From positions 1 through 30,175 of IMG/VR virus record IMGVR_UViG_3300017951_000073: a DNA stretch of 30,175 bases. One strand, written 5' to 3'. Source of the DNA: a virus. Each line of letters opens with the position of its first letter. Position 1 is the first letter of the stretch. The notes beneath the pieces are model-generated. The model did not search any database and was not told where the DNA came from. It saw only the letters and a list, made by a program, of their open reading frames with translations. Positions 4,407-29,461 of the stretch are shown one piece after another. The position numbers and the translations under genes were made by a program.

Positions 4407-4435
4407 AAAGTACTGCATATATGCAGTTAGGTCAA
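4407..4435 (-). promoter_or_regulatory. Leftward promoter with palindromic operator before exonuclease
   Basis: On the minus strand TTGACC (4435-4430) is followed 17 bases later by TACTTT (4412-4407), a plausible but weak -10. The spacer holds ACTGCATATATGCAGT (4412-4427), a perfect 16-bp palindrome. The -35 is formed by the last codons of the upstream gene. The 12-bp core TGCA-N4-TGCA recurs at 6338-6349 and 9376-9387, also inside promoter-like DNA. It would let the recombination genes be regulated separately from the upstream part of the operon. Confidence 0.6.
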
Positions 4436-5053
4436 CAGCTTTTTCCTCTGTTGTTCGATAGCGCGAAGCAGTAGCTTGCGCTTGTGTAATCTCCAGTCGA
4501 TGTGTTTGTAGAACTCAGCATATGCAGGCCAGAATGTAGCAGTCTTAGATACCTCTTTGATTGCATGAACAACAATATCTGCTGGGTACTCTGTGAGTTG
4601 CATAGCTATTGCATTCATACGAAATGTATAATCTTCAACCGACTCGCCTGCTGGCTTTACCACCAGCGCGGCCAGCAGAGCGAGTTGGTTGGTAATTTCA
4701 TCTACAGATAGTGAGGCCATAGAAGCGCGTACAGCGCGTTCAGCTTTGTCACACTGCTCTAGCGTATCTAGTTGTATCTGAAAGCCCTGTGTAGTGAATA
4801 CAGCCTCAGTATCAGTGAATCTAGTTTTGGTTTGCTCGACCACTGTTGAGTTGCTGATGGATTCCAGCGAAGAAACTAGGCGCTTGTCTGCCTCTGCTGG
4901 ATTGTCTATTTCCAGTAGTCTTGCCACCGCCGCTTGACGCATCTCTGTACTTAATGCTGTTGCGGCACCAGAGTCGGTATGCTTTTCTGACATCTGCGAA
5001 GACATTGCCTTTGGATTGATGGTGGTCACAGAACCTAGATGCTTCATGCTCAT
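4427..5053 (-). CDS. Phage protein of unknown function, replication-region
   Basis: 208 residues. The N-terminal 78 residues are polar and overlap the preceding gene out of frame. The C-terminal part has the conserved-looking pattern ALVVKPAGESVEDYTFRMNA then LTEYPADIVVHAIKEVSKTA and FWPAYAEFYKHIDW, ending in a basic helix (RLHKRKLLLRAIEQQRKKLL). The YPADIV...FWPxxAE signature is widespread in proteins encoded next to phage replication initiators; a helicase-loader-like or replisome role is possible but unproven. AAAGGAG lies 10 bases before ATG 5053, and I see no better site downstream, which supports the long overlap. The stop overlaps the next promoter. Confidence 0.7.
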   Translation of the reverse strand: MSMKHLGSVTTINPKAMSSQMSEKHTDSGAATALSTEMRQAAVARLLEIDNPAEADKRLVSSLESISNSTVVEQTKTRFTDTEAVFTTQGFQIQLDTLEQCDKAERAVRASMASLSVDEITNQLALLAALVVKPAGESVEDYTFRMNAIAMQLTEYPADIVVHAIKEVSKTATFWPAYAEFYKHIDWRLHKRKLLLRAIEQQRKKLLT

Positions 5054-5465
5054 GGTCGATGTTCTCCTTTAGTATGCTATCGATAGACTGACGTAGATCA
5101 TCATCAGGATACCAATTGTCTGGCACCTGATTGCGTTTCTTTTTAGATTGACTGGTTACTGATAGGTTAGGGTTGCACTCTGCACCAGTACTGGTGCTGT
5201 CTGCACCAGTCGGAAATATTGTGTACAGTGTAGAGCGTCTGCTATTGCCACGCTCTCTGCTAATCCAGCCTTGTTCTTCTAGCCAGTTTAGTTTGCGTGT
5301 AACTGTAGACCTATTCATACATGCGCGTGTAGCTAGTCGATCAAGACTAGGCCAGCACTCATGTGTGTATTCGTTGGCATGATCAGCTAAAATTACCATC
5401 AGCCATTTGGCATGACAGTCTGGTATATCAGCTTGTATCGCTTTCGCCATCAGTGTGAAAGCCAT
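4821..5465 (-). CDS. Helix-turn-helix phage replication protein
   Basis: 214 residues. An N-terminal winged-helix domain (about 15-85) shows HAKWLMVILADHANEYTHEC, PSLDRLATRACMNRSTVTRK, LNWLEEQGWISRERG and then RRSTLYTI. This is the arrangement of phage replication-initiator-type proteins (first strand/helix, recognition helix RSTVTRKL, wing). After a serine/threonine linker comes a basic stretch (SKKKRNQVPDNW) and a C-terminal motif FADVRKAYRLWCRNSIKY, typical of replication initiators that bind origins and recruit helicase. The last ~75 residues overlap the next gene out of frame and turn Gly/Ser/Gln-rich. AAAGGAGAAC precedes the start. Likely the initiator of this polymerase-less phage. Confidence 0.78.
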   Translation of the reverse strand: MAFTLMAKAIQADIPDCHAKWLMVILADHANEYTHECWPSLDRLATRACMNRSTVTRKLNWLEEQGWISRERGNSRRSTLYTIFPTGADSTSTGAECNPNLSVTSQSKKKRNQVPDNWYPDDDLRQSIDSILKENIDHEHEASRFCDHHQSKGNVFADVRKAYRLWCRNSIKYRDASSGGGKTTGNRQSSRGRQAPSFFAGIHQQLNSGRANQN

Positions 5466-5790: not shown

Positions 5791-5960
5791 GTTCCATCCG
5801 TATAACAATCAACACATATTAGATAGTGAGTTACCTCTGGCTCTATTGTAGCTAGTGGCATTACAAAATATTCTGTAAACACACCGCATGTTTCACATGC
5901 GTACTCTCTACCGCTTTTGATTTTTTTTCTTGTGGACTTTGATTTGTAAGCCAAGTGCAT
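5628..5960 (-). CDS. Small zinc-ribbon protein, overlapping neighbours
   Basis: 110 codons. The region not shared with other genes (5791-5907) encodes two CxxC pairs, YACETCG and LICVDCY, about 26 residues apart, a probable zinc ribbon. The N-terminus is basic (YKSKSTRKKIKSG) and overlaps the end of the upstream XRE-like gene. The last ~54 codons overlap the nuclease gene in another frame and are Ser/Thr/Lys-rich. No good Shine-Dalgarno precedes ATG 5960, so the true start could differ. The zinc-ribbon core argues for a real gene; the extent of the tail is uncertain. Confidence 0.45.
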   Translation of the reverse strand: MHLAYKSKSTRKKIKSGREYACETCGVFTEYFVMPLATIEPEVTHYLICVDCYTDGTWQTKTAIKETTTKGGSSTGYKRSASKRNASPSAVAWEESIAATSSGNSEDTDW

Positions 5961-6162
5961 CTAACCAGCATGTAAACAAGAACCCGCTGGGTACTCGTTT
6001 ATACTGTTCCCATTTGTGAATTAAAGATTTAGCGCAACCAATTTTGTGAGCCAATGCTTCTTGTGACATGCCCTGCTTTTCTCGGTGCATGACAAGTTCA
6101 TTGATAACAGCTTCGTAACTGTCAGTTACTTCGGTCTGCTCTTTGAAGTGTTGAAAGTTCAC
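5908..6162 (-). CDS. XRE-family helix-turn-helix regulator
   Basis: About 84 residues from a GTG at 6162. The core VINELVMHREKQGMSQEALA then HKIGCAKSLIHKWEQYKRVP is a textbook XRE/Cro-C1 HTH: MSQEALAHKIG is helix 2 and CAKSLIHKWEQ the recognition helix. It ends LDALGLQIKVHKKKNQKR. The start is uncertain: the frame is open back to 6267 but that part overlaps the preceding XRE gene. GTG 6162 has only a weak AAGGTG site, and ATG 6090 would cut helix 1. Together with the next entry it forms a pair of phage DNA-binding regulators, perhaps repressor and antirepressor-like. Confidence 0.7.
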   Translation of the reverse strand: MNFQHFKEQTEVTDSYEAVINELVMHREKQGMSQEALAHKIGCAKSLIHKWEQYKRVPSGFLFTCWLDALGLQIKVHKKKNQKR

Positions 6163-6325
6163 CAATAGCTTTGAACACCTTGGTTGCAGTTGAGTAACGC
6201 AAGTCAACACCGTTCTTTGCACGATAGAATGTTGACGTTGGAATGCCAGCGTGAGTGAATGCATCAATCAATCTCACGCTGGCTCTCTGGGATTCACTAG
6301 ATAAAACATCAATGTAACTAAGCAT
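6122..6325 (-). CDS. Cro/C1-type repressor-like protein
   Basis: 67 residues. A compact helix-turn-helix (RLIDAFTHAGIPTSTFYRAK, then NGVDLRYSTATKVFKAIGEL) fills nearly the whole protein, as in small phage Cro-like regulators. The recognition helix is IPTSTFYRAKNG. The start ATG is 6325, with no Shine-Dalgarno and with promoter elements so close that the transcript would begin at or next to the ATG: a leaderless message, as for lambda cI from PRM. TGCA-type palindromes directly upstream suggest it binds its own promoter and the two similar sites at the ends of the operon. Repressor role is inferred. Confidence 0.72.
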   Translation of the reverse strand: MLSYIDVLSSESQRASVRLIDAFTHAGIPTSTFYRAKNGVDLRYSTATKVFKAIGELSTLQRADRSN

Positions 6326-6326
6326 G

Positions 6327-6360
6327 ATGCATGATTATGCATTCATGCAGTTAGTGTCAA
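6327..6360 (-). promoter_or_regulatory. Leftward promoter with operators for the XRE regulator
   Basis: On the minus strand a perfect -35 TTGACA (6360-6355) is followed at 15 bases by CATAAT (6339-6334, 5 of 6). Within and around it lie TGCATTCATGCA (6338-6349, matching the operator core at 4414-4425 and 9376-9387) and a second inverted repeat ATGCAT-N4-ATGCAT (6327-6342). Initiation about 7 bases after the -10 would fall on the ATG at 6325. The -35 includes the stop codon of the upstream gene. Confidence 0.65.
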
Positions 6361-9373: not shown

Positions 9374-9416
9374 ACTGCACATATGCAGTATATATGATTA
9401 GGTTGCACACTGCAAC
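9374..9416 (-). promoter_or_regulatory. Main leftward early promoter with two operator types
   Basis: On the minus strand TTGCAG (9415-9410) and TATACT (9392-9387, 5 of 6) are spaced 17 bases. Two palindromes overlap them: GTTGC-N5-GCAAC at 9402-9416 covers the -35, and ACTGCACATATGCAGT (9374-9389, one mismatched pair) covers the -10 to start region. The first matches sites in the late region (14934, 18223); the second matches the sites at 4412 and 6338. AAGGAG and the first ATG follow immediately. Confidence 0.65.
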
Positions 9417-9473
9417 GAATAAAAATTCTGATGTTGTAGTTTGTGAAAGTCGCGCGGCAAATACTCCACCGAT

Positions 9474-9535
9474 GCGGGGCCTCCCCGCCACGCCCCGAAG
9501 GGGCGGGCGAAGCCAAGCCCCAAGGGGCTGGCTTC
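9474..9535. repeat. Array of three GC-rich hairpins
   Basis: Three hairpins lie end to end: GCGGGG/CCCCGC (9474-9488), CGCCCC/GGGGCG (9491-9505), and a longer one at 9509-9535 made of GAAGCC and AGCCCC pairing with GGGGCT and GGCTTC around a 2-base loop, with one bulged base. The DNA is much richer in G+C than the genes around it. No ORF on either strand looks coding. The third is followed by TTT on the + strand, so it may stop rightward transcription. Confidence 0.6.
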
Positions 9536-9564
9536 TTTGCGGGTCGGGGTAGCTCACACTGCCA

Positions 9565-9600
9565 CAAAAAAAGCCCCGCTAGCCGAAGCTAGCGAGGCTT
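9565..9600 (-). terminator. Strong rho-independent terminator
   Basis: In the leftward sense AAGCCTCGCTAGC (9600-9588), loop TTCG and GCTAGCGGGGCTT (9583-9571) form a 13-bp stem with one mismatch, closed by a UUCG-type tetraloop and followed by a run of seven T. It lies 12 bases behind the stop codon of the 9613-10041 gene, so that gene is a separate leftward unit that does not feed the early operon. Confidence 0.85.
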
Positions 9601-9612
9601 GGTGTTTGGCGT

Positions 9613-10041
9613 TTATGACGCTGACTTGTTGTCGGCGTAACGCTTGGCATATGAGTCGAGAAGACGGTCAGCGGCTTTGGCTGAGTCTTCAGACTTCTTG
9701 TGCTGTTCTGGGAACAGTTGCTGTGAAGCCTGAAGCAAGTACGCTCTCCAATCTTCGTTGATAGCAATCTGGAACTTCAACCATTCGATGTCACGATCGT
9801 TCTGTAACATCTTGTCTTGGTCAATGGCAGTGCCTTTTTCTTGTTGCTTGACAAACATGTCATAGTTTTCAGCATCGAGCTTTTCAATACGTTCATTTTT
9901 GTTCTTGGTATTGTAATCAACAGCGTTAATGTGACCCTGCAAGTGGTATGCAATTTGAGAGCCGACAGTGCGATCCGAAATCGTGAACATACGCTGAGCG
10001 TCAAGAGCCAGACCATTTTTAGAAGTAAGTACTTTAGACAT
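9613..10041 (-). CDS. Monocistronic phage protein, unknown
   Basis: 142 residues. The N-terminus (MSKVLTSKNGLALDAQRMFT, ISDRTVGSQIAYHLQGHINA) is followed by a long helical stretch rich in Asp, Lys and Gln (DRDIEWLKFQIAINEDWRAY, then QQLFPEQHKKSEDSAKAADR). No family recognised. AAAGGAGAAC is the ribosome site. The gene has its own strong terminator, and a perfect GGCGATG-N6-CATCGCC hairpin (10061-10080) in its leader just upstream of the ribosome site, so it is regulated apart from the early operon. A 17-base part of its coding sequence recurs inverted at 10360-10376. Confidence 0.68.
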   Translation of the reverse strand: MSKVLTSKNGLALDAQRMFTISDRTVGSQIAYHLQGHINAVDYNTKNKNERIEKLDAENYDMFVKQQEKGTAIDQDKMLQNDRDIEWLKFQIAINEDWRAYLLQASQQLFPEQHKKSEDSAKAADRLLDSYAKRYADNKSAS

Positions 10042-10113
10042 AACAGTTCTCCTTTACAGTGGCGATGAACAGCCATCGCCTTACGGGTCTTGCCTCCGCA
10101 TGGGCTGGGGCAA

Positions 10114-10223
10114 CAAGCAAGTCAGGCTCGGCCGGCGTGCCAGTTTGACCCAGCCCGCTTGCCCGCAAGGGCATGATAAGCGCGGGCTGGCTAGGCAAAC
10201 TGAGCATGGGCGAGACTTGCTTG
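10114..10223. repeat. 110-nt nested hairpin
   Basis: Four stems nest in order. CAAGCAAGTC (10114-10123) pairs with GACTTGCTTG (10214-10223), CAGTTTG (10141-10147) with CAAACTG (10196-10202), CCAGCCCGC (10150-10158) with GCGGGCTGG (10182-10190), and TGCCC (10160-10164) with GGGCA (10169-10173) around GCAA. All are perfect within the stem. This is far more pairing than expected by chance and would form a long rod in RNA or a cruciform in DNA. Confidence 0.7.
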
Positions 10224-10380
10224 GGGCAACAGTTTATGCGAGGCTTAGACCCTAGTTGGCGATGACTGTTTATTGACGCTGGAAAGACAGAGAACTGTTT
10301 GGCTAAAGTGCGCAACGGAGAAAAATGGGCTGGGTCGCAGACATCAGTGTAGGTTCTAAGATTTCGGATCGCACTGGCGG

Positions 10381-10466
10381 GGTAGGTGTGGCCCAAGGGC
10401 TGTGCGCCAGCGCAGTCCTTAGCTTTAGCTAAGCGAGACGCAAGGATCGCTTGGGCCACACCTACC
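10381..10466. repeat. 17-bp perfect terminal stem enclosing two inner hairpins
   Basis: GGTAGGTGTGGCCCAAG (10381-10397) is the exact reverse complement of 10450-10466. Inside lie TGCGC/GCGCA (10403-10414) and CTTAGC/GCTAAG with a TTTA loop (10418-10433). On the + strand TTTT follows (10467-10470), so it could end as a small structured RNA; equally it could be a DNA element such as an origin or packaging site. Confidence 0.7.
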
Positions 10467-10544
10467 TTTTGCAACGTGCCACTTGTGTATGTGTATTCCC
10501 CCGTGTCCTTCGCGTGTTGCTATGCGCGGTGCAACGTCCGGCGT

Positions 10545-10565
10545 GAACAAGGCCGTGCCTTGTTC
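10545..10565. repeat. 9-bp hairpin with 3-base loop
   Basis: GAACAAGGC (10545-10553), loop CGT, GCCTTGTTC (10557-10565); three more pairs outside (one G-T) extend the stem to 12. Part of the structured non-coding block before the terminase genes. Confidence 0.6.
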
Positions 10566-10629
10566 GCGGCGCAACGGCCACTCGCGCCAGCATATCCACG
10601 CGAATTGCCGCGTTCAGCAAGGTGCTTAT

Positions 10630-10665
10630 TTGTGCGTTGACAAAGGTGTCAGAATTGCGTGATGT
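10630..10665 (+). promoter_or_regulatory. Rightward late promoter-like site before TerS
   Basis: The shared 10-mer TTGTGCGTTG (10630-10639) runs into a perfect -35 TTGACA (10637-10642) that also forms an inverted repeat TGACA-N4-TGTCA (10638-10651). A -10 at 17 bases (TGATGT, 10660-10665) is weak, so an activator or a modified polymerase may be needed. The same 10-mer precedes three other late modules. Confidence 0.5.
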
Positions 10666-10703
10666 TTGGGGGGGAACACAAGGGGGGGCAAGTGAGATTG
10701 AGT

Positions 10704-11075
10704 ATGACTGATGTAGTGAAGTTAACCGAGAAACAGTACGCTCTTGTAGATACACTCGTAGCAGAAGGCTGTAGCATCACAGAGGCGGCTGGCAAAGCCG
10801 GTTACGCAGAGGGTGAAAGCGGTAGGGTCAGCGCCAGCCGTGCTTTGCGTCAGCCGCATGTGCAAGCGTACATGATGCAGAGAGTTGGTGAAACACTCGG
10901 TGTTAATGCTACGACAGCGGCGGCGCGCCTTGTCAGGCTTGCCACGGGGGCCAAGAGTGAGTACGTCCAGCTAGAAGCTAGCAAAGATATCTTGGACAGG
11001 GCTGGGTTCAAGGCCCCCGACAAGCATATGCACTTACACAGTGGTGATATTAAAGTCAGTATAGATCTGAGCTAA
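10704..11075 (+). CDS. terS: Terminase small subunit
   Basis: 123 residues from ATG 10704. LTEKQYALVDTLVAEGCSIT then EAAGKAGYAEGESGRVSASR and ALRQPHVQAYM form the N-terminal DNA-binding HTH of small terminases. The C-terminal part (VGETLGVNATTAAARLVRLA, EYVQLEASKDILDRAGF) matches their oligomerisation/TerL-contact region, with the usual 'ILDRAG-K' end. It recognises the packaging site and recruits TerL, encoded about 2.3 kb downstream rather than adjacent. Starts at 10659 or 10662 are possible but lie upstream of the expected transcript start. The structured region before it is a good pac candidate. Confidence 0.82.
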   Translation: MTDVVKLTEKQYALVDTLVAEGCSITEAAGKAGYAEGESGRVSASRALRQPHVQAYMMQRVGETLGVNATTAAARLVRLATGAKSEYVQLEASKDILDRAGFKAPDKHMHLHSGDIKVSIDLS

Positions 11076-11096
11076 ACTAGCCGAGGGCTAGTTTTT
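11074..11096 (+). terminator. Rho-independent terminator after TerS
   Basis: AAACTAGCC (11074-11082), loop GAG, GGCTAGTTT (11086-11094) with the stem running into a TTTTT tract (11092-11096), overlapping the terS stop codon. It separates TerS from the following mini-gene cluster, at least partly. Confidence 0.8.
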
Positions 11097-11118
11097 GCTC
11101 AGGGGGTGGGGGTCAAAA

Positions 11119-11202
11119 ATGGCAATACGTTACTGGCAAGGTGTCTACCACGAACATAAATGCTTAAAAAGGCTCGCAACCAAATTGAAAATATTTTTTT
11201 AG
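11119..11202 (+). CDS. Possible 27-codon basic peptide
   Basis: An ATG behind a G-rich stretch (GGGGGT) opens 27 codons ending in TAG: basic with a hydrophobic end (CLKRLATKLKIFF). It fills the gap between the TerS terminator and the mini-gene cluster. Support is weak, and it may be a leader peptide or chance. Confidence 0.25.
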   Translation: MAIRYWQGVYHEHKCLKRLATKLKIFF

Positions 11203-11215
11203 CTAGAGGTGCGTC

Positions 11216-11392
11216 ATGATGTTTTCAGACCCGAACAACAGTTTAGTTGTTAGGTTATTTAAAAAGATGCAGCAAGAGCGTGGTTTACAGGCTCAAGCGG
11301 CGAAGACTGAGAACCGCAAAAAGAAGCAAGCTCGTAAGCAGAGGCTTACTTTACTTCGTGGCAAGCGTAGATATGATGATGTAAGGGGTTAG
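11216..11392 (+). CDS. Basic mini-protein, paralogue A
   Basis: 58 residues (57 if the second ATG is used), AGAGGTG upstream. A hydrophobic/basic N-terminus (SLVVRLFKKMQQERG) leads to an arginine/lysine helix (KTENRKKKQARKQ) and the C-terminal motif RLTLLRGKRRYDDVRG. The last 16 residues closely match the next gene, also 58 residues, so the two are tandem duplicates. Strong positive charge suggests nucleic-acid or capsid-interior binding; function unknown. Confidence 0.6.
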   Translation: MMFSDPNNSLVVRLFKKMQQERGLQAQAAKTENRKKKQARKQRLTLLRGKRRYDDVRG

Positions 11393-11394
11393 TC

Positions 11395-11571
11395 ATGTTA
11401 AGAAAAGGTGTACAGTTAGCGGTTCAATACGGCGCTATCAGTCCAAAGTCTGAGGTTGATGCGAAGCAAAAAGTCAATGCAGAATCAAAAAAGAAACGCA
11501 AAGCAAAAGCAGAACGGCGCAAGCGTTTAACTTTATTGCGTGGTTCTCGCAGATATAGGGATGTGACGTAA
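11395..11571 (+). CDS. Basic mini-protein, paralogue B
   Basis: 58 residues, starting two bases behind paralogue A. N-terminus MLRKGVQLAVQYGAISPKSE differs, but a basic helix (ESKKKRKAKAERRK) and the C-terminus RLTLLRGSRRYRDV align with the upstream copy. The stop overlaps the next start (TAATG). A tandem duplication kept in such a compact genome suggests both copies are used. No family known to me. Confidence 0.6.
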   Translation: MLRKGVQLAVQYGAISPKSEVDAKQKVNAESKKKRKAKAERRKRLTLLRGSRRYRDVT

Positions 11572-11834
11572 TGTGCGTTGGTGGTGGTTCAGGCCCAGTT
11601 TATAGTACTGCTGTTTCGGTTGACACTAGTACACAACCCATTAAGAGCAAGTACCCATTGACTGAAGCTCAGAAGAAAGAGAATGCGCGTCGCCGCAAGT
11701 TGCTTGAGCGAAAGAGTTTACTTGGAACTCAAGGCAATAATGATAAAGGTGGTGATGGCAATTTGGGTGGTTCATCAAAAGGCGGCAGTAATTTTGGCGG
11801 GTTTAATGACGCAAGTGGGGGCTTTGGCGTGTAA
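11571..11834 (+). CDS. Small glycine-rich protein (MC-GGG type)
   Basis: 87 residues. It begins MCVGGGSG and has the central motif EAQKKENARRRKLLERKSLL, then a Gly/Asn/Ser-rich tail (GGSSKGGSNFGGFNDASGGF, ending GV). The order 'MC-G..., proline/polar, RR-LL-SLL, GG-GF' matches the small protein encoded before the portal at 14989 and similar small proteins near terminase/portal genes in T7-like marine phages. The RRKLLERKSLL segment also echoes the LTLLRG motif of the two upstream genes. Role unknown; TAATG overlap at both ends. Confidence 0.6.
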   Translation: MCVGGGSGPVYSTAVSVDTSTQPIKSKYPLTEAQKKENARRRKLLERKSLLGTQGNNDKGGDGNLGGSSKGGSNFGGFNDASGGFGV

Positions 11835-12178
11835 TGCGTAGGACACCAGCATGGCAGAGAAAAGAAGGCCAGAACCCTCAAGGTGGGTTGAACGACAAAG
11901 GACGCGCATCTTACAAGGCACAAACAGGCGGCACACTCAAAGCGCCAGTCAAGGGTGCGGCAGACACACCAGAGAAACTGAGGCGCAAAGGAAGTTTCTT
12001 GACGCGCATGGGTTCCGCAAAGGGGCCATTGAAGGATGAGAAGGGCAGACCAACTAGATTGAAGAAGTCATTGGTTGCATGGGGCCACAGTGGTGACAAG
12101 GCTAGCGCGGTTGCTAAAGGCCGTTCCCTTCTAAAGCGTTACCAAAACACAAAGAAAAGGAAGAAAGCCAATGCCTAA
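11834..12178 (+). CDS. DUF6321-like basic protein
   Basis: 114 residues. The start AWQRKEGQNPQGGLNDKGRA followed by SYKAQTGGTLKAP and later SFLTRMG, KGPLKDEKGRPTRLKKSLVA, W matches the pattern I associate with DUF6321 (AWxRKEGKNPxGGLNxKGxxSY ... FxxRM ... SLxxW). Highly basic with no hydrophobic segment. Often found near packaging genes in marine phages; function unknown. It overlaps the next gene. Confidence 0.7.
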   Translation: MRRTPAWQRKEGQNPQGGLNDKGRASYKAQTGGTLKAPVKGAADTPEKLRRKGSFLTRMGSAKGPLKDEKGRPTRLKKSLVAWGHSGDKASAVAKGRSLLKRYQNTKKRKKANA

Positions 12179-12323
12179 TGTCGCGGGAAAATACTACACT
12201 TATACCCCTGCTGGTAAAAAGGCGGCTGAGAAAGCCGCGCAGAGTTTACTTACTAAGCAACAGAGAACGCTTCCAAAGGCTATCCAAGCCAAGATCATTA
12301 AGAAAAAGATGGGGAAAGCGTAA
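12171..12323 (+). CDS. 50-residue basic mini-protein (MPNVAGKYYTYTPAGKKAA type)
   Basis: Starts inside the end of the previous gene and ends in TAATG with the next. The N-terminus MPNVAGKYYTYTPAGKKAAE is the recurrent signature of a small marine phage family (MP-V-GK-Y-YTP-G-KAA). The rest is a lysine-rich helix ending IIKKKMGKA. Translation is supported by the coupling at both ends. Function unknown. Confidence 0.62.
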   Translation: MPNVAGKYYTYTPAGKKAAEKAAQSLLTKQQRTLPKAIQAKIIKKKMGKA

Positions 12324-12571
12324 TGGCTAGGTATCAAAAACATGATGGCACTATCTATGATGGGCCTGTAGTTACTATGCCGGATGGCAGAATTAAGACT
12401 GGCGCAACACTTACTGCTGACTCAGAGCGTGTATTCCCAATGCCAGAACGTGCAAGAGATGAGGATGGTGGGTTTAAATCTGACGATCCTTCTACAGCAG
12501 AAGTAAATGAGGCTTGGCAAGGTGGCAAAGCACCAATCAAAAAGAAGCGTGTAACTAAGAAGAAGGTATAG
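12323..12571 (+). CDS. Small protein of the late mini-gene cluster
   Basis: 82 residues. A beta-type N-terminal half (YQKHDGTIYDGPVVTMPDGR, IKTGATLTADSERVFP) is followed by an acidic linker and a very basic C-terminal tail (PIKKKRVTKKKV). The tail suggests contact with DNA or with acidic protein surfaces. The start overlaps the preceding stop. Not recognised. Confidence 0.6.
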   Translation: MARYQKHDGTIYDGPVVTMPDGRIKTGATLTADSERVFPMPERARDEDGGFKSDDPSTAEVNEAWQGGKAPIKKKRVTKKKV

Positions 12572-12573
12572 TC

Positions 12574-12816
12574 ATGGGTAAAACATTAATGAAGCCAACA
12601 TCAAAAGGTGTAATGCGTAAGTTAGGCAGTGAAGAAGCTCAAGCTAACATTAGAGCAAGAACTAATTATGCAAAGACAATTGGTGAGGCCAGCAAGAAAG
12701 CTAACGAAACAATGACGTTTTCTGGCAAAGCTGACTTTATGGAAAAAGTAAGAAAGCTGGCAAGAAAGCAATATGATTTAGATATTTTCTTTGAAGGCGG
12801 AAAGCCAAAGAGTTAA
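12574..12816 (+). CDS. Small basic protein of the late mini-gene cluster
   Basis: 80 residues: basic N-terminus (MGKTLMKPTSKGVMRKLGSE), helical middle (QANIRARTNYAKTIGEASKK), then KADFMEKVRKLARKQYDLDI and a short end. It begins two bases after the previous stop. No family recognised. Possibly helical and nucleic-acid binding by composition only. Confidence 0.58.
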   Translation: MGKTLMKPTSKGVMRKLGSEEAQANIRARTNYAKTIGEASKKANETMTFSGKADFMEKVRKLARKQYDLDIFFEGGKPKS

Positions 12817-12818
12817 TT

Positions 12819-12986
12819 ATGGCAGTTAATGAAGCTGGCAACTATACCAAACCAAAGATGCGAAAGAGTTTGTTCAATCGCATAAAGGCTGGCAACAAAG
12901 GCGGAGCTAGTGGTCAGTGGTCAGCGCGTAAAGCCCAGATGCTTGCCAAAGCATACAAAGCAAAAGGCGGAGGCTATACGTCTTGA
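12819..12986 (+). CDS. 55-residue basic mini-protein (AGNYTKP...GQWSARKAQMLAK)
   Basis: Short, but with a clear conserved pattern: NEAGNYTKPKMRKSLFNRIK then AGNKGGASGQWSARKAQMLA and KAYKAKGGGY. The same series of motifs recurs in small late genes of marine phages. Lysine/arginine/glycine-rich, no hydrophobic segment. Its last bases contain the TTG start of the next gene. Function unknown; perhaps a DNA-condensing or capsid-lumen protein by charge. Confidence 0.65.
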   Translation: MAVNEAGNYTKPKMRKSLFNRIKAGNKGGASGQWSARKAQMLAKAYKAKGGGYTS

Positions 12987-13228
12987 AAAATCCACAAAAA
13001 TCTTTGGTGAATTGGACAAAGCAAAAGTGGAGAACCAAGTCTGGTAAACCATCTACTCAAGGCCCAAAGGCTACTGGTGAACGTTACTTGCCAGCCGCCG
13101 CTATAAAAGCTATGTCTAGTTCACAGTATGCGGCTTCTTCAAAGAAAAAGCGTGAAGATACCAAGAAAGGGAAGCAATTCTCCAAGCAACCGAAAGGCGC
13201 GGCGGCGATTGCTAAAAGATATAGATGA
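12983..13228 (+). CDS. DUF5872-like basic protein (TTG start)
   Basis: 81 residues. SLVNWTKQKWRTKSGKPSTQ followed by GPKATGERYLPAAAIKAM, SSSQYAASSKKKRED and GKQFSKQPK matches the pattern of DUF5872 (WTKQKWRTKSGK...TGERYLP...GKQF), found in phages and some protist viruses. The start is a TTG overlapping the previous stop (TTGA). Function unknown, strongly basic. Confidence 0.7.
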   Translation: MKNPQKSLVNWTKQKWRTKSGKPSTQGPKATGERYLPAAAIKAMSSSQYAASSKKKREDTKKGKQFSKQPKGAAAIAKRYR

Positions 13229-13419
13229 GTTTTCTACACACACTGAAGGTAGAAGAACGTGACCTTCTTCGCAGAATAGTGAAGAAAGTACACCTTGCTC
13301 ACCACCCAAAAGAATTTTGTACCGACCATGAGGCTGATAAAGTTATTGCTGTTATTGGCCCAGAAGTAATTGATCGCATGATTAAGTTCGGTAAGGATAA
13401 CAAGGTTGACCAGCTTTAA
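13225..13419 (+). CDS. Conserved small protein preceding TerL
   Basis: 64 residues: LKVEERDLLRRIVKKVHLAH, HPKEFCTDHEADKVIAVIGP, EVIDRMIKFGKDNKVDQL. Four histidines plus a cysteine and Asp/Glu residues (HLAHHPKEFCTDHEAD) could bind a metal. The pattern is a frequent companion of terminase large subunits in marine phages. It overlaps TerL by 14 bases. Possible packaging accessory; not demonstrated. Confidence 0.65.
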   Translation: MSFLHTLKVEERDLLRRIVKKVHLAHHPKEFCTDHEADKVIAVIGPEVIDRMIKFGKDNKVDQL

Positions 13420-14926
13420 CTACAAGCCTGATGGCAATGTACTAAAAGCATTTATGAAAGATGATAGTTTCTTTCGTGGCATTCGTGGGCCTGTAGGCTC
13501 TGGGAAATCTGTGGGTTGTTGTGTTGAAGTCTTTCGCAGAGCTTTAATGCAGAAGAAAAACAAAGATGGTGTTCGGCGTAGCCGCTGGGCAATCATCAGA
13601 AACACTAACCCACAACTTAGAACAACCACAATAAAGACTTGGCTTGACTGGTTTCCAGAGGATGAGTGGGGCAAGTTTATGTGGTCGGTTCCATATACAC
13701 ACTGGATTAAGCAGGGTGATCTGGAACTAGAAGTAATCTTCCTAGCACTCGACAGGCCTGAAGATGTCAAAAAGCTCCTCTCCCTTGAACTTACTGGCAT
13801 CTGGATTAATGAGGCTAGGGAGATACCTAAATCAATTATTGACGCATGTACTATGCGTGTTGGTCGTTTCCCTTCTATGCGTGATGGTGGGCCTAGTTGG
13901 TCTGGGGTCATCGCTGATACTAATGCTCCTGAAGAAGATCACTGGTGGCCTATTATGTCTGGTGAAGTTCCTGTGCCGGATCATATCCCGCTTGAGCAAG
14001 CGCGGATGCTAGTCAAACCAGATAACTGGAACTTCTATATTCAGCCAGCGGGAATGGATGAAGTTAATGGAGAAGATGGTTCTGTTGTTGATTACAAGCC
14101 AAACAAGAAGGCTGAGAACGCAAAGAACATGCTTGAAAGCTATTACCCGAATCTAATTCGCGGTAAAACAAAAAGCTGGATTGATGTCTATGTGATGAAT
14201 AAACTTGGCACTATTCAAGAGGGTAAACCAGTGTATCAAGGTTTTGTTACTGAAACACATGTAGCCAAAGAAGAAATACCTATTGCTGATGGCATACCGC
14301 TGTACATTGGAATTGACTTTGGTTTGACACCCGCCGCTGTGTTTGGACAGAAAGTACGCGGCAGATGGTTAATCCAGTCAGAGATTGTAGCTATTGACAT
14401 GGGCATTGTTCGCTTTGCTGAACTGCTCAGACAGGAGATTGCTACACGTTTTGCCAATCAAGAAGTCAAAATTTTTGGTGATCCGGCTGGTGACTTTCGC
14501 GCACAGACTGATGAAAGTACACCTTTTCAAATACTTAGAGGTGCTGGCTTACGAGCAACACCCGCACCAAGCAACTCTGTTGACTTGCGCTTAGAAGCTG
14601 TGTCGTCTTCTTTGAACAAGATGGTTGATGGCAAGCCAGCATTTTTGATTGATCGGCGTTGCCCAACATTAATTAAAGGCTTTGAAGGCGGGTATCAGTA
14701 CAAACGTATGCAAGTATCTGGTGAGCGTTTTGATGACAAGCCAGAAAAAAATATGTATTCACACATCCATGATGCGCTTCAGTATCTGATGCTTGGTGCT
14801 GGTGAAGGTAGACAGCTTATATCTGGGCAGAAACCTTTAACTGCATTCAATGCTAGATCTGAGTTTGATGTGTTTGCAAGGAAGCCAAAGCAACAAAAAC
14901 GTCAAGGCTTATGGGCAAGAATGTGA
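13406..14926 (+). CDS. terL: Terminase large subunit
   Basis: 506 residues, TTG start with AAGG upstream. ATPase: Walker A GPVGSGKS (28-35), Walker B GIWINE (131-136, Glu136 catalytic). The coupling/linker region around residues 165-180 reads GVIADTNAPEEDHWW. Nuclease (RNase H fold): Asp304 in YIGIDFGLTP, Asp359/Asp363 in FGDPAGDFR, Asp456 in HIHDALQY. This is the motor that packages DNA through the portal and cuts it at the end of each round. The length is usual. It abuts the conserved TTGTGCGTTG site that opens the portal module. Confidence 0.95.
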   Translation: MTSFNYKPDGNVLKAFMKDDSFFRGIRGPVGSGKSVGCCVEVFRRALMQKKNKDGVRRSRWAIIRNTNPQLRTTTIKTWLDWFPEDEWGKFMWSVPYTHWIKQGDLELEVIFLALDRPEDVKKLLSLELTGIWINEAREIPKSIIDACTMRVGRFPSMRDGGPSWSGVIADTNAPEEDHWWPIMSGEVPVPDHIPLEQARMLVKPDNWNFYIQPAGMDEVNGEDGSVVDYKPNKKAENAKNMLESYYPNLIRGKTKSWIDVYVMNKLGTIQEGKPVYQGFVTETHVAKEEIPIADGIPLYIGIDFGLTPAAVFGQKVRGRWLIQSEIVAIDMGIVRFAELLRQEIATRFANQEVKIFGDPAGDFRAQTDESTPFQILRGAGLRATPAPSNSVDLRLEAVSSSLNKMVDGKPAFLIDRRCPTLIKGFEGGYQYKRMQVSGERFDDKPEKNMYSHIHDALQYLMLGAGEGRQLISGQKPLTAFNARSEFDVFARKPKQQKRQGLWARM

Positions 14927-14927
14927 T

Positions 14928-14964
14928 TTGTGCGTTGCGTTCTGCAACTAATTGTGTTTATGAA
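14928..14964 (+). promoter_or_regulatory. Rightward promoter-like site before the portal module
   Basis: TTGTGCGTTG (14928-14937) flows into GTTGC-GTTCT-GCAAC (14934-14948). TTGCGT (14935-14940) could be a -35 with TATGAA (14959-14964) 18 bases on. Fourteen bases here (14925-14938) are identical to 18214-18227 before the capsid gene. It begins right behind the terL stop codon. AGGAG for the next gene follows. Confidence 0.55.
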
Positions 14965-14988
14965 TTGAGTTCTAGCTAGGAGATTGCA

Positions 14989-15201
14989 ATGTGTACAAGT
15001 AGACCACCAGCACCACCACCACCTGATCCAAACATTGCTTTACAGCAACAGGCTCAGAAGGCAGAAGCTACTGCTTCAAAGAAAGAAGCTAAGGCTAAAC
15101 AGCTAACATCAACAGTTTCTCGTATGCGCGGCGGCAAAGGTCGTAGATCTTTGATTAAGAGTTCAAGCGGCGGAATGGGTTTCTATAGCGAGTATTTGTA
15201 A
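14989..15201 (+). CDS. Small protein preceding the portal (proline/GG-rich)
   Basis: 70 residues: MCTSRPPAPPPPDPNIALQQ, a charged helix (KAEATASKKEAKAKQLTSTV), then RMRGGKGRRSLIKSSSGGMG, FYSEYL. It is the usual small gene before the portal in T7-like marine phages and is related in layout to 11571-11834. TAGGAG lies upstream; the stop overlaps the portal start. Role unknown. Confidence 0.65.
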   Translation: MCTSRPPAPPPPDPNIALQQQAQKAEATASKKEAKAKQLTSTVSRMRGGKGRRSLIKSSSGGMGFYSEYL

Positions 15202-16784
15202 TGATAACATACGCTGATACCTCTACTGGTGTTTATGAAGGCGGTAAGATTGCTCAAACATATTTGAAAAAATATGAAAGAGCCAAAACATTGCGTGAAA
15301 ATTTTCTTCCATTGTTTGAAGAATGTTACGAATACGCATTGCCTCAACGTGAATCATTTTATGCAGAATCAGTAGGACAGCGTAGAGATGACAAAATATT
15401 CGATGAAACGGCTGTTGTTGGAGTTCAGGAATTTGCTTCAAGACTTCAATCGGGCTTGGTTCCTAACTTTGCTAGATGGGCGGATTTTACTGCGGGTTCT
15501 GAAGTACCGCCTGAAGACAGAGATGAAGTTAATAATCAATTGGATGAAGTCACGGATTACGTCTTTGAAGTTATTCAGAATTCAAATTTCGGTCTGGAAG
15601 TTCATGAATCGTTTATGGACTTGGCGGTAGGCACTGGCGTTTTATGCGCTATGGAAGGTGACGCAGTAAACCCAGTTATGTTTTCTGCAATACCACTGCC
15701 GCATGTAGTTCTTGATACTGGCCCTGATGATCGTGTTGATCATGTATATCGTGAGCGTTCTGTACGCAACTCAGATATACCTGTAATGTATCCAAAGGTT
15801 GCATTATCTGAGAAAATACAAACTAGAATTAATAATAACCCTGATGAGCGTACAAAAGTTCTTGAAGTTGTATGCCGTGATTATTCTAAATTAAATCAAG
15901 AAGCATACTTATTTTATGCAATAGAAACAAATACTAAGGAAGTAATTAAGCAAGAAGCCTACAATGGGATAGGCTCAAATCCGTTTATTTGCTTTCGCTG
16001 GTCTAAGGTATCTGGTGAAATTTATGGACGCGGCCCACTAATAAATGCACTTAGTGCAATTAAAACTACTAACCTTACAATTGAGTTGATTCTTGAAAAT
16101 GCACAGATGGCAATCTCAGGCATTTATCAGATGGACGATGACGGTGTTATTAACCCAGATACTATTAATCTCGTCCCCGGAACCGTCATACCAAAAGCGG
16201 CGGGATCAATGGGCTTACAGCCTGTTCAAGCGGCTGGCTCTTTCGATGTTGCTAATCTTGTTCTTAGCGATATGCGTTTGAATATTAAACGCGCTTTGTA
16301 CAATGATATGCTTGGCGATCCAAATAAAACACCAGCTTCTGCAACAGAGATTGCAGAGCGTATGGCTGACTTATCAAGACGTATTGGCTCTGCCTTTGGC
16401 AGATTGCAAGCTGAACTAGTTCAGCCTGTATTGCAAAGAGTTGTGTACATTCTGAAAAAACAAGGACGCATTGAACTGCCAACAATGAATGGCAGAGAAG
16501 TAAAAGTGCGTTCTATTTCACCTCTTGCACAGGCTCAGGCGAACCAAGACATTTCCTCCGTGGCTAGATTCCTTGAACTTGTGCAAGGCAGATTTGGCCC
16601 AGAGTTGACAAACATTCTAATTAACTCTGAGGAAACTGCCGCTTATCTTGCTAAGAAGTTTGGTGTTCCAGATGTGCTTGTTCGTGATCTGGAAGAACGC
16701 CAACAGATAGTACAGATGGCGCAACAAATGGCTCAGCAACAACAGATGATGCAACAGGGAGAACCGCCAGTTGGTCAAGGATAG
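15201..16784 (+). CDS. Head-tail connector / portal protein, T7 gp8-like
   Basis: 527 residues. Early segment YLKKYERAKTLRENFLPLFE, CYEYALPQRESFY, then FDETAVVGVQEFASRLQSGL and VPNFARWADF is the signature of the T7-type head-to-tail joining protein. A mid-domain FICFRWSKVSGEIYGRGPLI and late TPASATEIAERMADLSRRIG follow, and a glutamine-rich C-terminus (QMAQQMAQQQQMMQQ) ends it. It forms the dodecameric DNA channel at the capsid vertex and docks TerL and the tail. It is followed by scaffold and capsid as in T7. Confidence 0.93.
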   Translation: MITYADTSTGVYEGGKIAQTYLKKYERAKTLRENFLPLFEECYEYALPQRESFYAESVGQRRDDKIFDETAVVGVQEFASRLQSGLVPNFARWADFTAGSEVPPEDRDEVNNQLDEVTDYVFEVIQNSNFGLEVHESFMDLAVGTGVLCAMEGDAVNPVMFSAIPLPHVVLDTGPDDRVDHVYRERSVRNSDIPVMYPKVALSEKIQTRINNNPDERTKVLEVVCRDYSKLNQEAYLFYAIETNTKEVIKQEAYNGIGSNPFICFRWSKVSGEIYGRGPLINALSAIKTTNLTIELILENAQMAISGIYQMDDDGVINPDTINLVPGTVIPKAAGSMGLQPVQAAGSFDVANLVLSDMRLNIKRALYNDMLGDPNKTPASATEIAERMADLSRRIGSAFGRLQAELVQPVLQRVVYILKKQGRIELPTMNGREVKVRSISPLAQAQANQDISSVARFLELVQGRFGPELTNILINSEETAAYLAKKFGVPDVLVRDLEERQQIVQMAQQMAQQQQMMQQGEPPVGQG

Positions 16785-17043
16785 GACGTATCTATCTCTT
16801 GATGGGTTTCGCCGCGATAAGAGTGAAGACACAAGAATCAGTTTAGACATAGCAACTTTATTCAATACCGACACAGGCAAATCGGTATTGCGTTACTTAC
16901 GGTCTATTACCATAGAACAAGTTAATGGCGCTGGCGTTAGCAATGACGAATTGCGCCATATGGAAGGACAGCGATATATCGTTGGCCTCATTGAGTCGCG
17001 TATGCAAAATGCACACAAATCAAAGAGGGCAGAAAATGAGTGA
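16771..17043 (+). CDS. Small conserved structural-region protein, Bbp19-like
   Basis: 90 residues from a TTG overlapping the portal end (GGGAG upstream). The core DIATLFNTDTGKSVLRYLRS, ITIEQVNGAGVSNDELRHME, GQRYIVGLIESRM is a pattern common next to portal genes of short-tailed phages (FxTxxGxxVLxYLRxIT ... ELRHxEGQRYLVGLI), which I associate with Bbp19-type proteins. Function unknown, possibly a minor head component. It overlaps the scaffold gene by 8 bases. Confidence 0.65.
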   Translation: MVKDRTYLSLDGFRRDKSEDTRISLDIATLFNTDTGKSVLRYLRSITIEQVNGAGVSNDELRHMEGQRYIVGLIESRMQNAHKSKRAENE

Positions 17044-17767
17044 AGAAGCAGAAGCACAAGTAGAAGATTCTGGTGTTGTTACCGAAGGTGGTGATCCACG
17101 TTTAGAAACTGTTGAGCAAGCTAGACCAGAATGGTTGCCAGAAAAGTTTAACACTCCAGAGGATTTGGTAAACTCATACACAAATCTAGAAGGCAAGCTA
17201 GGCAAAAAAGACGAAGACATTCGCAATGCGATTATTGAAGAACTAAGCCAAGAAGCCTTTGCTAATCGTCCAGAAACTGCTGGTGATTATCAATTACCAG
17301 AATCTATTGACGAAGAATCTGCTACAAGTAACGAGCTTTTAAGCTGGTGGGCAGAAACTGCATTTGAAAATGGTTATAGTCAGGAACAGTTTGAAGAAGG
17401 CATTAACATGTATGTTGAAGCCTTGAATGCTGATGTTCCAGACTATGATGCAGAAGTTGCAAAGCTAGGCGAAAATGCAGATGCAAGGCAAGAAGCCGCT
17501 AGCTTGTTTGCTAATCAGTTCTTTGAAGAACAGCATCTGCCAGCTATTGAGCGTATGTGTGAAACAGCCGATGGCATTGAGGCATTAGAATACATGATGT
17601 CTGCAATGAAACAAGCTGGCCCATCTATGCAAAGTCAACCAGCAGGGACAATTACACAAGATCAACTTAATCAAATGATGCTTGATCCACGTTGGCATGA
17701 TCCTGCAAAGCGTGATATGTCTTTTGTTAAAGAAGTAGAAGATGGCTTCAAGCGACTCTATGGATGA
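17036..17767 (+). CDS. Capsid assembly scaffolding protein, T7 gp9-like
   Basis: 243 residues from ATG 17036 (AGAGGG upstream). Very acidic. RPEWLPEKFNTPEDLVNSYT then NLEGKLGKKDEDI is the conserved N-terminal motif of T7-type scaffolds. The middle is helical and acidic, and the C-terminus (DPRWHDPAKRDMSFVKEVED, GFKRLYG) carries the basic helix that contacts capsid protein. Position between portal and capsid is canonical. A longer frame from 16925 covers the previous gene and is not used. Confidence 0.87.
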   Translation: MSEEAEAQVEDSGVVTEGGDPRLETVEQARPEWLPEKFNTPEDLVNSYTNLEGKLGKKDEDIRNAIIEELSQEAFANRPETAGDYQLPESIDEESATSNELLSWWAETAFENGYSQEQFEEGINMYVEALNADVPDYDAEVAKLGENADARQEAASLFANQFFEEQHLPAIERMCETADGIEALEYMMSAMKQAGPSMQSQPAGTITQDQLNQMMLDPRWHDPAKRDMSFVKEVEDGFKRLYG

Positions 17768-18278
17768 GGAAGTTGGTCGCATTGGCAAGCTATCTTTAGT
17801 TAAAGCTACTCTAGATCACGCTAGAATGATCGCTGACAGCCTTCGCATGCTTGATGCTAGGGAATGTCTAATATATGGCATGACCCCGCTAGAGGCGCTT
17901 CTAGAGCCGTTTACGGTAACAAATAATAAAACCTATGCCATAAAGTTTGAGGAAACTGTGATTGCTTTATGCGGTACAGTTCCTGTTGTTGAGAACATTG
18001 GCAGGGTTTGGATGCTAGGAACTGGTGGCATAAACCAGAACTGGCGTGTGTTTCTTAGGGGTTGTAAGCCAGCAATAGACATACTCCAAGACGAATACCA
18101 CATGATTGAGAACTTTGTTCCAGAGGATCATCAGGACACAATTATGTGGCTAACATGGTGTGGATTTACTTTTGATAAAGAGATCTACAATGTCCATGGG
18201 CATAATATGTTGCGATTTGTGCGTTGCAGAGAGCAACAAAATAATGTTTATTATCTGAAACGGCCTGTAATGCATTGA
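17742..18278 (+). CDS. GNAT-like / T7 gp13 (DUF2833)-like protein
   Basis: 178 residues. VKATLDHARMIADSLRMLDA, RECLIYGMTPLEALLEPFTV, then YAIKFEETVIALCGTVPVV, GRVWMLGTGGINQNWRVFLR and MWLTWCGFTFDKE resembles the DUF2833 family of T7 gp13-like proteins, which have a GNAT acetyltransferase-like fold. T7 gp13 is needed for assembly of the internal core. Here the gene lies between scaffold and capsid rather than among the internal-protein genes. It overlaps the scaffold gene by 26 bases, and its 3' end contains the promoter-like site for the capsid gene. Confidence 0.72.
   Translation: MASSDSMDEEVGRIGKLSLVKATLDHARMIADSLRMLDARECLIYGMTPLEALLEPFTVTNNKTYAIKFEETVIALCGTVPVVENIGRVWMLGTGGINQNWRVFLRGCKPAIDILQDEYHMIENFVPEDHQDTIMWLTWCGFTFDKEIYNVHGHNMLRFVRCREQQNNVYYLKRPVMH
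18217..18254 (+). promoter_or_regulatory. Rightward promoter-like site before the capsid gene
   Basis: TTGTGCGTTG (18217-18226) runs into GTTGC-AGAGA-GCAAC (18223-18237). TTGCAG (18224-18229) and TATTAT (18249-18254, 5 of 6) are 19 bases apart. It is identical over 14 bases to 14925-14938. It lies inside the end of the GNAT-like gene, about 115 bases before the capsid start: a fitting place for a strong capsid promoter. Confidence 0.55.
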
Positions 18279-22818: not shown

Positions 22819-25227
22819 ATGGCTGTCATTAGAGAAAAACAACAATTCCAAAATCAGCGCATTGGTGTGGTGCGCATGGATACTGGTGCTGAAAATTACT
22901 ACCAAACAGTTGCTAATGCGGCTGATACACTAACTCAGATTGCATTTAAAGAAGCTGGCAGGGTTGCACAGAAGAAAGGTGCAGAGCTTGCAGAATCTGC
23001 ATCAACACAAAGTTTGCGCACAATTAATCCTGAAACTGGAAAGCCAGAAGCATACAACATACCAGAAAACTTTGGTACTGCGGCTCAAGCCGCTTACGAA
23101 GAAGTTCTTGATCGCAGATTTATTTCAGACGTTGATAACCAAATTAAAGAACGTGCGCGTGAATTAGTTCTAAAATATCAAAACGATCCTCAAGGCGTAG
23201 AGAAATACGGTCAGGCAATGGAAGACTACGTTGCCCAGATGATTAATCCAAAAAACTCTGGCGCGTTAAATGATAGATTCCAGAACATAATACGAGACAC
23301 TGGCGCGGCATTTATTGCTAGCACTAAGTTTAATCTTATGACTAAACGTGCAGAGGTTGTTCAGAACCAACTGCGTGATGGACTTATTCAAGATGCGATT
23401 AATGGCGCAGAAGCCATTGAGGATTTAATTAAATCTGGCAAAGGCAGTGGTGTTGAATTTGTTGGTGTAAAAGAAGGTGAGCGTGAAGTAACAACAGCAT
23501 TAGACCTTATGATTCAAACAGAGATTGATCGTCAAGATGCTGGACTTGATGCCGGAATATTAACTCAGCCACAATTTGAAGCTAATGTAACAGCTTTAAT
23601 GAGTGCATTACCAACTGGCATTCTTAACAATAGACTTAATTATGATGCTGTGTTTGTAGATAATAACGGCAAAGAACAGCGCATGACATCAGACGTTGCG
23701 CTTGAGGTTGAGAATGCGCTTGATACTGGTGTTATTTCAAAAGATCTACCTGAGTCTTTGGTTGCAGAAGTAAACACTATACTTGAGTCAGATGGTTACA
23801 AAAGAAACAAAGCTGGAATACAGCGCAAGGCTGGTGAGTTGCGTGTTGCGTTAAGCAACAGAGAAAAAGAAGTTACAAAAGAAACAAAATTAGAAACAGC
23901 TATGAAGCAAGTTGCTGATGATAGCTATGTAGTTGATACACAAGATGGAATTAATCAAAAAGCTGTAGATGTTTTAATTGCGTCTGTTGAAAAATTAGAA
24001 GACCCAATGAATGCAAATATGGGTGCTTATTATTCAAGTCCAGAATCAACTAAGATTGATGCAAGCTGGAAATATTTTTTGCATACTAAAAACTTAATTG
24101 GTGAAGGTTTGAATCTTTCCTTAAAAAGATTAACTCGTCTTGAAAGAATGTCAGCTGATGAAATGCGAACTGTACTTGGACATTATGATTATATGTCTAA
24201 TGCTGTTGTTGGTGGCTCTATTGTTGATATGTCTTACGGTTCTAAATTATCAAAAGATGAACATGCTTTTCTTAAAGCATTAAACTCAATCACCAAAATT
24301 GCTGGCACTGAAAATATCGTTGAGCTTGCTTCATCGTTAAAAGAAAATATGCAAAATACAAAACTTGTAGATGATAGGGTAAAAACAATATTAGAAGCTA
24401 AAGGAACAGAAGGTGCTGAAAGTGCATTAACTAGATATTTGCAAGAAGGATTTGGCACTGACAGATATATGGTTGAGTTAGCAAGGCCATATGCAAAGCA
24501 TTTAATTATGGCTGGTGTTACTAAAGAAGATTTAGACACAGCTATGAATGAAATGTTTGAATCATCTTACGTTGATACTAATGGTGTTGTTGTAGATCGT
24601 TACAATCCACAAGTTGCAAAATCTATGTTTGCAATGAAAAGAATATTACCATCCGATAAAGACAGAGTTATTTTTTATAAAAATGCGCAAGAATATGTAA
24701 ATAAATTAAGCGGTGGTAATTTTTCTATTGGTGAAAATTTAGTTGGCGTTGATAGGAGCAGGCAAATAAAGCTTGTTCCTATGACTAACAATGCGTTGCA
24801 ACCTGATATGTTACCAATTGAATATACTATTATTGATGAATCTCAAGTTATTGCTGGGCAACCAAAAGAATTAAAAGAAACATCATCATTAGCAACATTC
24901 CAATATATAGCTCATTACATTGATGATAATGGTGAGTTAAAAATGATTCGCAATGAAAAAACTGGTGGGCCAATATTTGTTGGAACTGAATTAGCTAAAG
25001 ATGAAATAGCAATGGTTCGCAAGGCTGAGTCAGAAGATGCGTTACGCTACTCTAACGAGCAAGTTTTAGAAAAACTTCGTATTAATAGAAAGATAAGAAA
25101 GAACATAGAAGCGTTGTCACGTTCATTTGGTGGCCCTGATAAACCTGATAAACCGCCAAGACCACCTAAGCCATTTGTTGGCTCCAAACAATCAATACCA
25201 GATGAGATGAGTGGCGATGTCAATTAA
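22819..25227 (+). CDS. Internal virion protein, gp15-like ejection protein
   Basis: 802 residues. N-terminus QNQRIGVVRMDTGAENYYQT, VANAADTLTQIAFKEAGRVA is the usual opening of large helical internal proteins in this group. The body is long-helical, with a proline/lysine-rich C-terminus (GGPDKPDKPPRPPKPFVGSK). T7 gp15 forms the periplasmic tunnel of the ejectosome. It overlaps the next gene by 11 bases. The reading frame contains one GTTGC-N5-GCAAC repeat (23845-23859). Confidence 0.72.
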   Translation: MAVIREKQQFQNQRIGVVRMDTGAENYYQTVANAADTLTQIAFKEAGRVAQKKGAELAESASTQSLRTINPETGKPEAYNIPENFGTAAQAAYEEVLDRRFISDVDNQIKERARELVLKYQNDPQGVEKYGQAMEDYVAQMINPKNSGALNDRFQNIIRDTGAAFIASTKFNLMTKRAEVVQNQLRDGLIQDAINGAEAIEDLIKSGKGSGVEFVGVKEGEREVTTALDLMIQTEIDRQDAGLDAGILTQPQFEANVTALMSALPTGILNNRLNYDAVFVDNNGKEQRMTSDVALEVENALDTGVISKDLPESLVAEVNTILESDGYKRNKAGIQRKAGELRVALSNREKEVTKETKLETAMKQVADDSYVVDTQDGINQKAVDVLIASVEKLEDPMNANMGAYYSSPESTKIDASWKYFLHTKNLIGEGLNLSLKRLTRLERMSADEMRTVLGHYDYMSNAVVGGSIVDMSYGSKLSKDEHAFLKALNSITKIAGTENIVELASSLKENMQNTKLVDDRVKTILEAKGTEGAESALTRYLQEGFGTDRYMVELARPYAKHLIMAGVTKEDLDTAMNEMFESSYVDTNGVVVDRYNPQVAKSMFAMKRILPSDKDRVIFYKNAQEYVNKLSGGNFSIGENLVGVDRSRQIKLVPMTNNALQPDMLPIEYTIIDESQVIAGQPKELKETSSLATFQYIAHYIDDNGELKMIRNEKTGGPIFVGTELAKDEIAMVRKAESEDALRYSNEQVLEKLRINRKIRKNIEALSRSFGGPDKPDKPPRPPKPFVGSKQSIPDEMSGDVN
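23845..23859 (+). promoter_or_regulatory. Intragenic copy of the GTTGC-N5-GCAAC site
   Basis: GTTGC-GTTAA-GCAAC lies inside the gp15-like gene, the same inverted repeat and spacing as at 9402, 14934 and 18223, but without the TTGTGCGTTG leader. It may be chance or an internal site within the long ejection-protein genes. Confidence 0.25.
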
Positions 25228-29419: not shown

Positions 29420-29461
29420 TTGTGCGTTGTGCAGATTACACAAGGAAGGTAGGATTGCGCC
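29420..29461 (+). promoter_or_regulatory. Conserved TTGTGCGTTG site before the tail fibre gene
   Basis: The 10-mer (29420-29429) starts directly behind the stop codon of the gp16-like gene and overlaps an inverted repeat TTGTG-N7-CACAA (29427-29443). TTGTGC and TAGGAT are 17 bases apart, but that -10 would start the transcript at the ATG, behind the ribosome site AAGGAAGG, so the promoter reading is uncertain. The site is better taken as a member of the repeated late element. Confidence 0.45.

Follow-up and report, generated by a model that had tools for sequence, protein, structure and literature searches.

Predicted sites for a lambda O-like initiator at the probable replication origin and the early leftward promoter of uncultured marine podoviruses

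Two described systems come closest to the locus analyzed here. In phage lambda, the iterons bound by the initiator O are inverted repeats that lie midway along gene O and adjoin an AT-rich region, as described in the lambda passages of two accounts (PMC7466680; PMC3985674). In the F plasmid, RepE binds the iterons of the origin and, in addition, inverted repeats at the promoter of its own gene, which results in autoregulation (PMC13028717). In the open-access literature searched, no report was found of a phage initiator with a role at an early promoter.

The DNA analyzed (hereafter, the window) comprises 30,175 nucleotides, positions 1 to 30,175 of the IMG/VR virus record IMGVR_UViG_3300017951_000073. 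Its early genes, among them those for a recombination exonuclease, the replication initiator and small HTH proteins, are read leftward, and its terminase, portal, capsid and tail genes rightward. Comparison of the window DNA with phage records gave no near match. At the protein level, the nearest isolate was Pelagibacter phage EXVC031P Hodr (TerL, 65%); the 10-mer TTGTGCGTTG of the late promoters and the palindrome GTTGC-N5-GCAAC were both absent from the part of Hodr that was compared. Relatives were collected via the terminase (80), via the initiator (80) and via the protein preceding the capsid (4). The phage group is a large set of uncultured marine podoviruses.

A preliminary description of the window had reported perfect copies of GTTGC-N5-GCAAC at 9402, 14934, 18223 and 23845, with about 0.1 copies expected by chance, and had proposed that one dimeric protein binds them, repressing early and activating late transcription. 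All four exact copies were recovered, and about 0.08 exact copies are expected for a pattern fixed in advance. When the 5-bp arm was left free and the spacing could vary from 0 to 12, families of four turned up in 2 and families of three in 47 of 100 random sequences. At these frequencies, the number of copies alone is weak evidence, and conservation has to decide. Among the relatives, the palindrome was conserved at the early promoter (9402) and not at the late promoters (14934 and 18223); of the operators proposed, the early one was retained and the late ones were not.

The early leftward promoter (9387–9415, minus strand) is sigma70-like, with TTGCAG (9415–9410) and TATACT (9392–9387) separated by 17 bp. 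The copy at 9402–9416, a palindrome of 15 bp that reads GTTGCA-N3-TGCAAC, covers its −35, as had been noted. A promoter scan of 9387–9415 indicated no consensus promoter, because TTGCAG is a weak −35. A strong intrinsic terminator was observed on the minus strand at 9571–9600, between gene 9613–10041 and the early promoter. Apart from the copies within the initiator gene, the GTTGC palindrome recurs at one place, 3.1–4.9 kb upstream of that gene (L123, L124, L127, L128, L131, L133–135, L163–165, L170, L171, L193 and the window). The aligned promoters have a common layout of GTTGC-N5-GCAAC, about 10 bases, TATACTGCA-N4-TGCAGT, ribosome site and start codon, the second palindrome being imperfect in some genomes. 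A search with the −10 only yielded 19 non-redundant matches, 17 of them early promoters (those in L130 at −4461 and in L147 at −3145 were not and were left out). In 15 of these 17, the −35 is covered by a palindrome whose arms pair at every position or at all but one. The register of this palindrome is the same in all but L155, mostly 18–19 bases ahead of the ACTGC in the −10, and its centre varies. Two lineages (L167, L180) carry the compensating arm change ATTGC/GCAAT, and in two lineages with GTTGC iterons (L148/G007 and L151/G009), the right arm or the entire site is gone. The left arm includes the −35 hexamer and is, consequently, partly constrained by the sigma factor. That every copy in the window, the early one included, is due to chance is hardly credible: the frequency of families of four with free arm and spacing (2% of random sequences) leaves some room for it, but the early copy keeps its register in many lineages whose flanks vary, which refutes chance for 9402. 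For the copies at 14934, 18223 and 23845, the chance reading stands. The comparison therefore supports the 9402 copy as a putative operator at the early leftward promoter that is conserved across many lineages.

The predicted reader of this operator is encoded at 4821–5465 (minus strand), a lambda O-like replication initiator with an N-terminal winged helix and with iterons in the part of the gene encoding the linker. The protein matched a PHROG replication initiation protein (1e-26) and an O-like one (4e-15) as well as HTH_36 and MarR-like domains, and did not reach the curated O families of Pfam and NCBIfam. Its AlphaFold model, of modest quality overall (mean pLDDT 67) and usable for the N-terminal domain alone, gave MarR-like winged-helix matches; MarR-like folds ranked first in the structure comparison, and the plasmid Rep families of Pfam gave no match. 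The two iterons, GGTGCAGACAGCACC (5193–5207) and GGTGCAGAGTGCAAC (5172–5186), lie on the minus strand within the initiator gene, 21 bp apart. The second is the near match that the preliminary description had placed at 5171 without recognizing it as an iteron of the initiator gene. In the window, the iteron arms are GGTGC, whereas those at the early promoter are GTTGC.

Of the 81 initiator genes examined, every one had at least one iteron-like palindrome in this linker, by a tolerant criterion; the relatives mostly have 2–3 iterons spaced by 21 bp (e.g., ATTGCACACTGCAAC, ATTGCAGAGAGCAAC and GTTGCAGACAGCAAC). The iterons are conserved to a degree that the encoded protein does not account for: 17 non-redundant linkers contained 22 perfect palindromes, whereas 1000 synonymous-codon shuffles averaged 2.7 and never exceeded 9. 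The same shuffles ruled out that the iterons are a by-product of a repeated peptide. Across relatives, residues of the iteron region vary (Ser to Cys, Glu to Asp or His), and the DNA arms are unchanged. The 50 bases 3' of the iterons have an AT content of 65% versus 56% for the whole initiator gene, a modest excess. In the genes for diverged initiators of this phage group, the linker contains a pair of 15-bp 5-N5-5 palindromes with other arms, of the GTGAC, GTGTC or GTGCC type. The iterons at 5172–5207, in the middle of the gene, are thus the probable replication origin of this phage group. As in lambda, inverted-repeat iterons lie in the middle of the initiator's own gene and adjoin an AT-rich stretch; unlike the four 19-bp iterons described for lambda, those found here are 15 bp long, differ in sequence and number 2–3. 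Moreover, an extra copy is present here at the early promoter, and none is reported in the passages on lambda (PMC7466680; PMC3985674).

The 3' end of the initiator gene is overlapped by a gene in another frame (4427–5053, minus strand; overlap of about 230 bp) whose whole length is conserved in relatives and which, by a guess from its position, encodes a P-like helicase loader. In several relatives, both frames of the overlap (4821–5053) are conserved. In Hodr (L085:14100–14560), an HTH_3 domain and the C-terminal part of an O-like initiator seemingly form one fusion protein.

The early promoter also contains a second palindrome, ACTGCA-N4-TGCAGT (9374–9389), which overlaps the −10 and is taken as a separate operator. 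Further copies are located in the exonuclease promoter (4412–4427) and, in less perfect form, before a small HTH gene (6336–6351); many relatives have it between TTGAAC and TATAAT of their exonuclease promoter. Since this palindrome is common to three early promoters, a dedicated repressor that it serves probably exists.

The palindrome over the −35 could likewise be the operator of a separate phage repressor, such as the HTH proteins encoded at 5908–6267 or 6122–6325, its likeness to the iterons being coincidental or due to an ancient common origin. We regard this as unlikely, though it deserves consideration: the early operon also encodes small HTH proteins, and the promoter does carry another palindrome that it has in common with two other early promoters. 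However, a dedicated repressor would already have its site in that second palindrome, and a chance match to the iterons requires agreement at five free positions as well as in spacing. Furthermore, the arms at the early promoter drift together with the phage's own iterons. Six of nine deviating early-promoter arms matched the iteron arms of the same phage (permutation p of 0.00125, with shared ancestry not removed). The GTTGC palindrome was not found in genomes with other initiator types, nor was a copy of their own iterons found at their early promoters. Thus, the link holds within one initiator clade only.

On balance, GTTGC-N5-GCAAC is likely to be the binding site of the initiator at both the origin and the early promoter, where it would serve to switch off the early operon. 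The binders suggested in the preliminary description had not included the initiator encoded at 4821–5465. We infer from the sequence comparison that the same protein would act at the iterons and at the early operator and would repress by binding there. In the proposed mechanism, initiator dimers would bind the two iterons in their own gene (5172–5207), the presumed origin, and would also occupy 9402–9416 over the −35, blocking RNA polymerase. As the initiator accumulates, the early operon, including the initiator gene, would be turned down while replication starts. Repression is expected from the placement of the operator over the −35, and since the early operon includes the initiator gene, the result would be a negative feedback loop by which early transcription, too, would cease at the onset of replication. 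The arrangement resembles that of RepE in that an iteron-like inverted repeat overlaps the promoter of the initiator operon. It differs in that the promoter serves the early genes of a phage, lies 4 kb upstream of the gene for the initiator and is one at which repression is predicted; as far as searched, the sequences are unrelated, and RepE serves as an analogy only.

The 10-mer TTGTGCGTTG occurs four times in the window, always on the plus strand: before the small terminase (10630–10639), before the portal genes (14928–14937), before the major capsid gene (18217–18226) and 3' of a 1402-aa gene (29420–29429). As had been described, the palindromes at 14934–14948 and 18223–18237 are fused to late 10-mers, overlapping those at 14928 and 18217; the 10-mer ends in GTTG and so supplies the left half of the palindrome. 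In 769 kb of relatives, the 10-mer was found 73 times, always in the orientation of the late genes. Across 47 non-redundant late promoters, it is followed by mostly A or C and then, 15 bases on, by a weakly conserved −10-like TATGnT. By these comparisons, the late promoters of this phage group share TTGTGCGTTG as a box that is strongly conserved and strictly kept in one orientation. In T4 middle promoters, a fixed element at about −30, the MotA box, replaces the normal −35 and is followed downstream by a −10-like element. The likeness concerns the late 10-mer alone, which is also a fixed box with a −10-like element downstream; its sequence, spacing or reading protein are not matched to those of MotA. 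A search of the open-access literature for the string TTGTGCGTTG gave, at the top of the matches listed, entries unrelated to phages, and the box did not turn up in the phage papers that the search covered.

The right arm of the palindrome did not share this conservation. GCAAC at N5 was present in 1 of the 47 non-redundant late promoters, and downstream of the terminase the relatives kept TTGTGCGTTG wherever the promoter was present and did not keep the palindrome. Both late-promoter palindromes were perfect in the window species and its close relatives L005, L200, L201 and L202 only; these are so close that persistence is uninformative on selection. L203, with 80% nucleotide identity over 10 kb, has both late 10-mers intact and neither palindrome. 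The copy at 18223–18237 lies within the 3' end of gene 17742–18278, and its right arm is coding sequence (Glu-Gln-Gln) that is replaced in a relative.

These data bear on the proposal of one dimeric protein acting on all copies, which we consider very improbable. It would agree with the perfect late palindromes in the window species and its close relatives, and with the identity of the 18223 copy to an iteron of relatives, GTTGCAGAGAGCAAC. It is contradicted by the loss of the right arm, with the 10-mer intact, in L203 and nearly all other relatives; in addition, two of the four late 10-mers of the window (10630 and 29420) are without palindrome, and the right arm at 18223 has the coding role just described. 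Since the right arm is lost in nearly all but very close relatives while the 10-mer is intact, the late-promoter palindromes are most likely chance completions, as is the copy at 23845–23859, which lies within an 802-aa virion gene (22819–25227) without promoter context. There is a slim chance that, in this species alone, a site for the initiator was also gained at two late promoters. One initiator would then act on the origin and on early and late promoters, and late transcription would be coupled directly to replication. Altogether, the observations of the preliminary description were partly confirmed, and its interpretation was partly supported: the early copy does appear to be an operator, with the origin iterons rather than the late promoters as its partner sites.

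The late 10-mer is probably read by a protein other than the initiator. A candidate is the HTH_3 (Cro/CI-like) protein encoded at 5908–6267 (minus strand). Its gene was present in all 14 genomes that have the 10-mer and in which the early region is covered. It was absent from G005, G010 and G021, all of which are without the 10-mer and have the neighbouring genes covered. Hodr has a counterpart of this protein only as a distant fused form. By presence and absence, this protein is the best candidate for the reader of the 10-mer and late activator, and is offered as a lead.

For a large group of uncultured marine podoviruses, a probable replication origin has thus been located. The word over the early promoter is also the predicted origin-binding word, which suggests that, with the onset of replication, the phage probably silences its own early operon. 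Such an early shut-off at the start of replication would amount to a plasmid-like autoregulation built on a lambda-like origin. The word of the origin and early operator is, moreover, distinguished from another one, TTGTGCGTTG, a strongly conserved code of the late promoters for which one gene can be offered as the likely reader.
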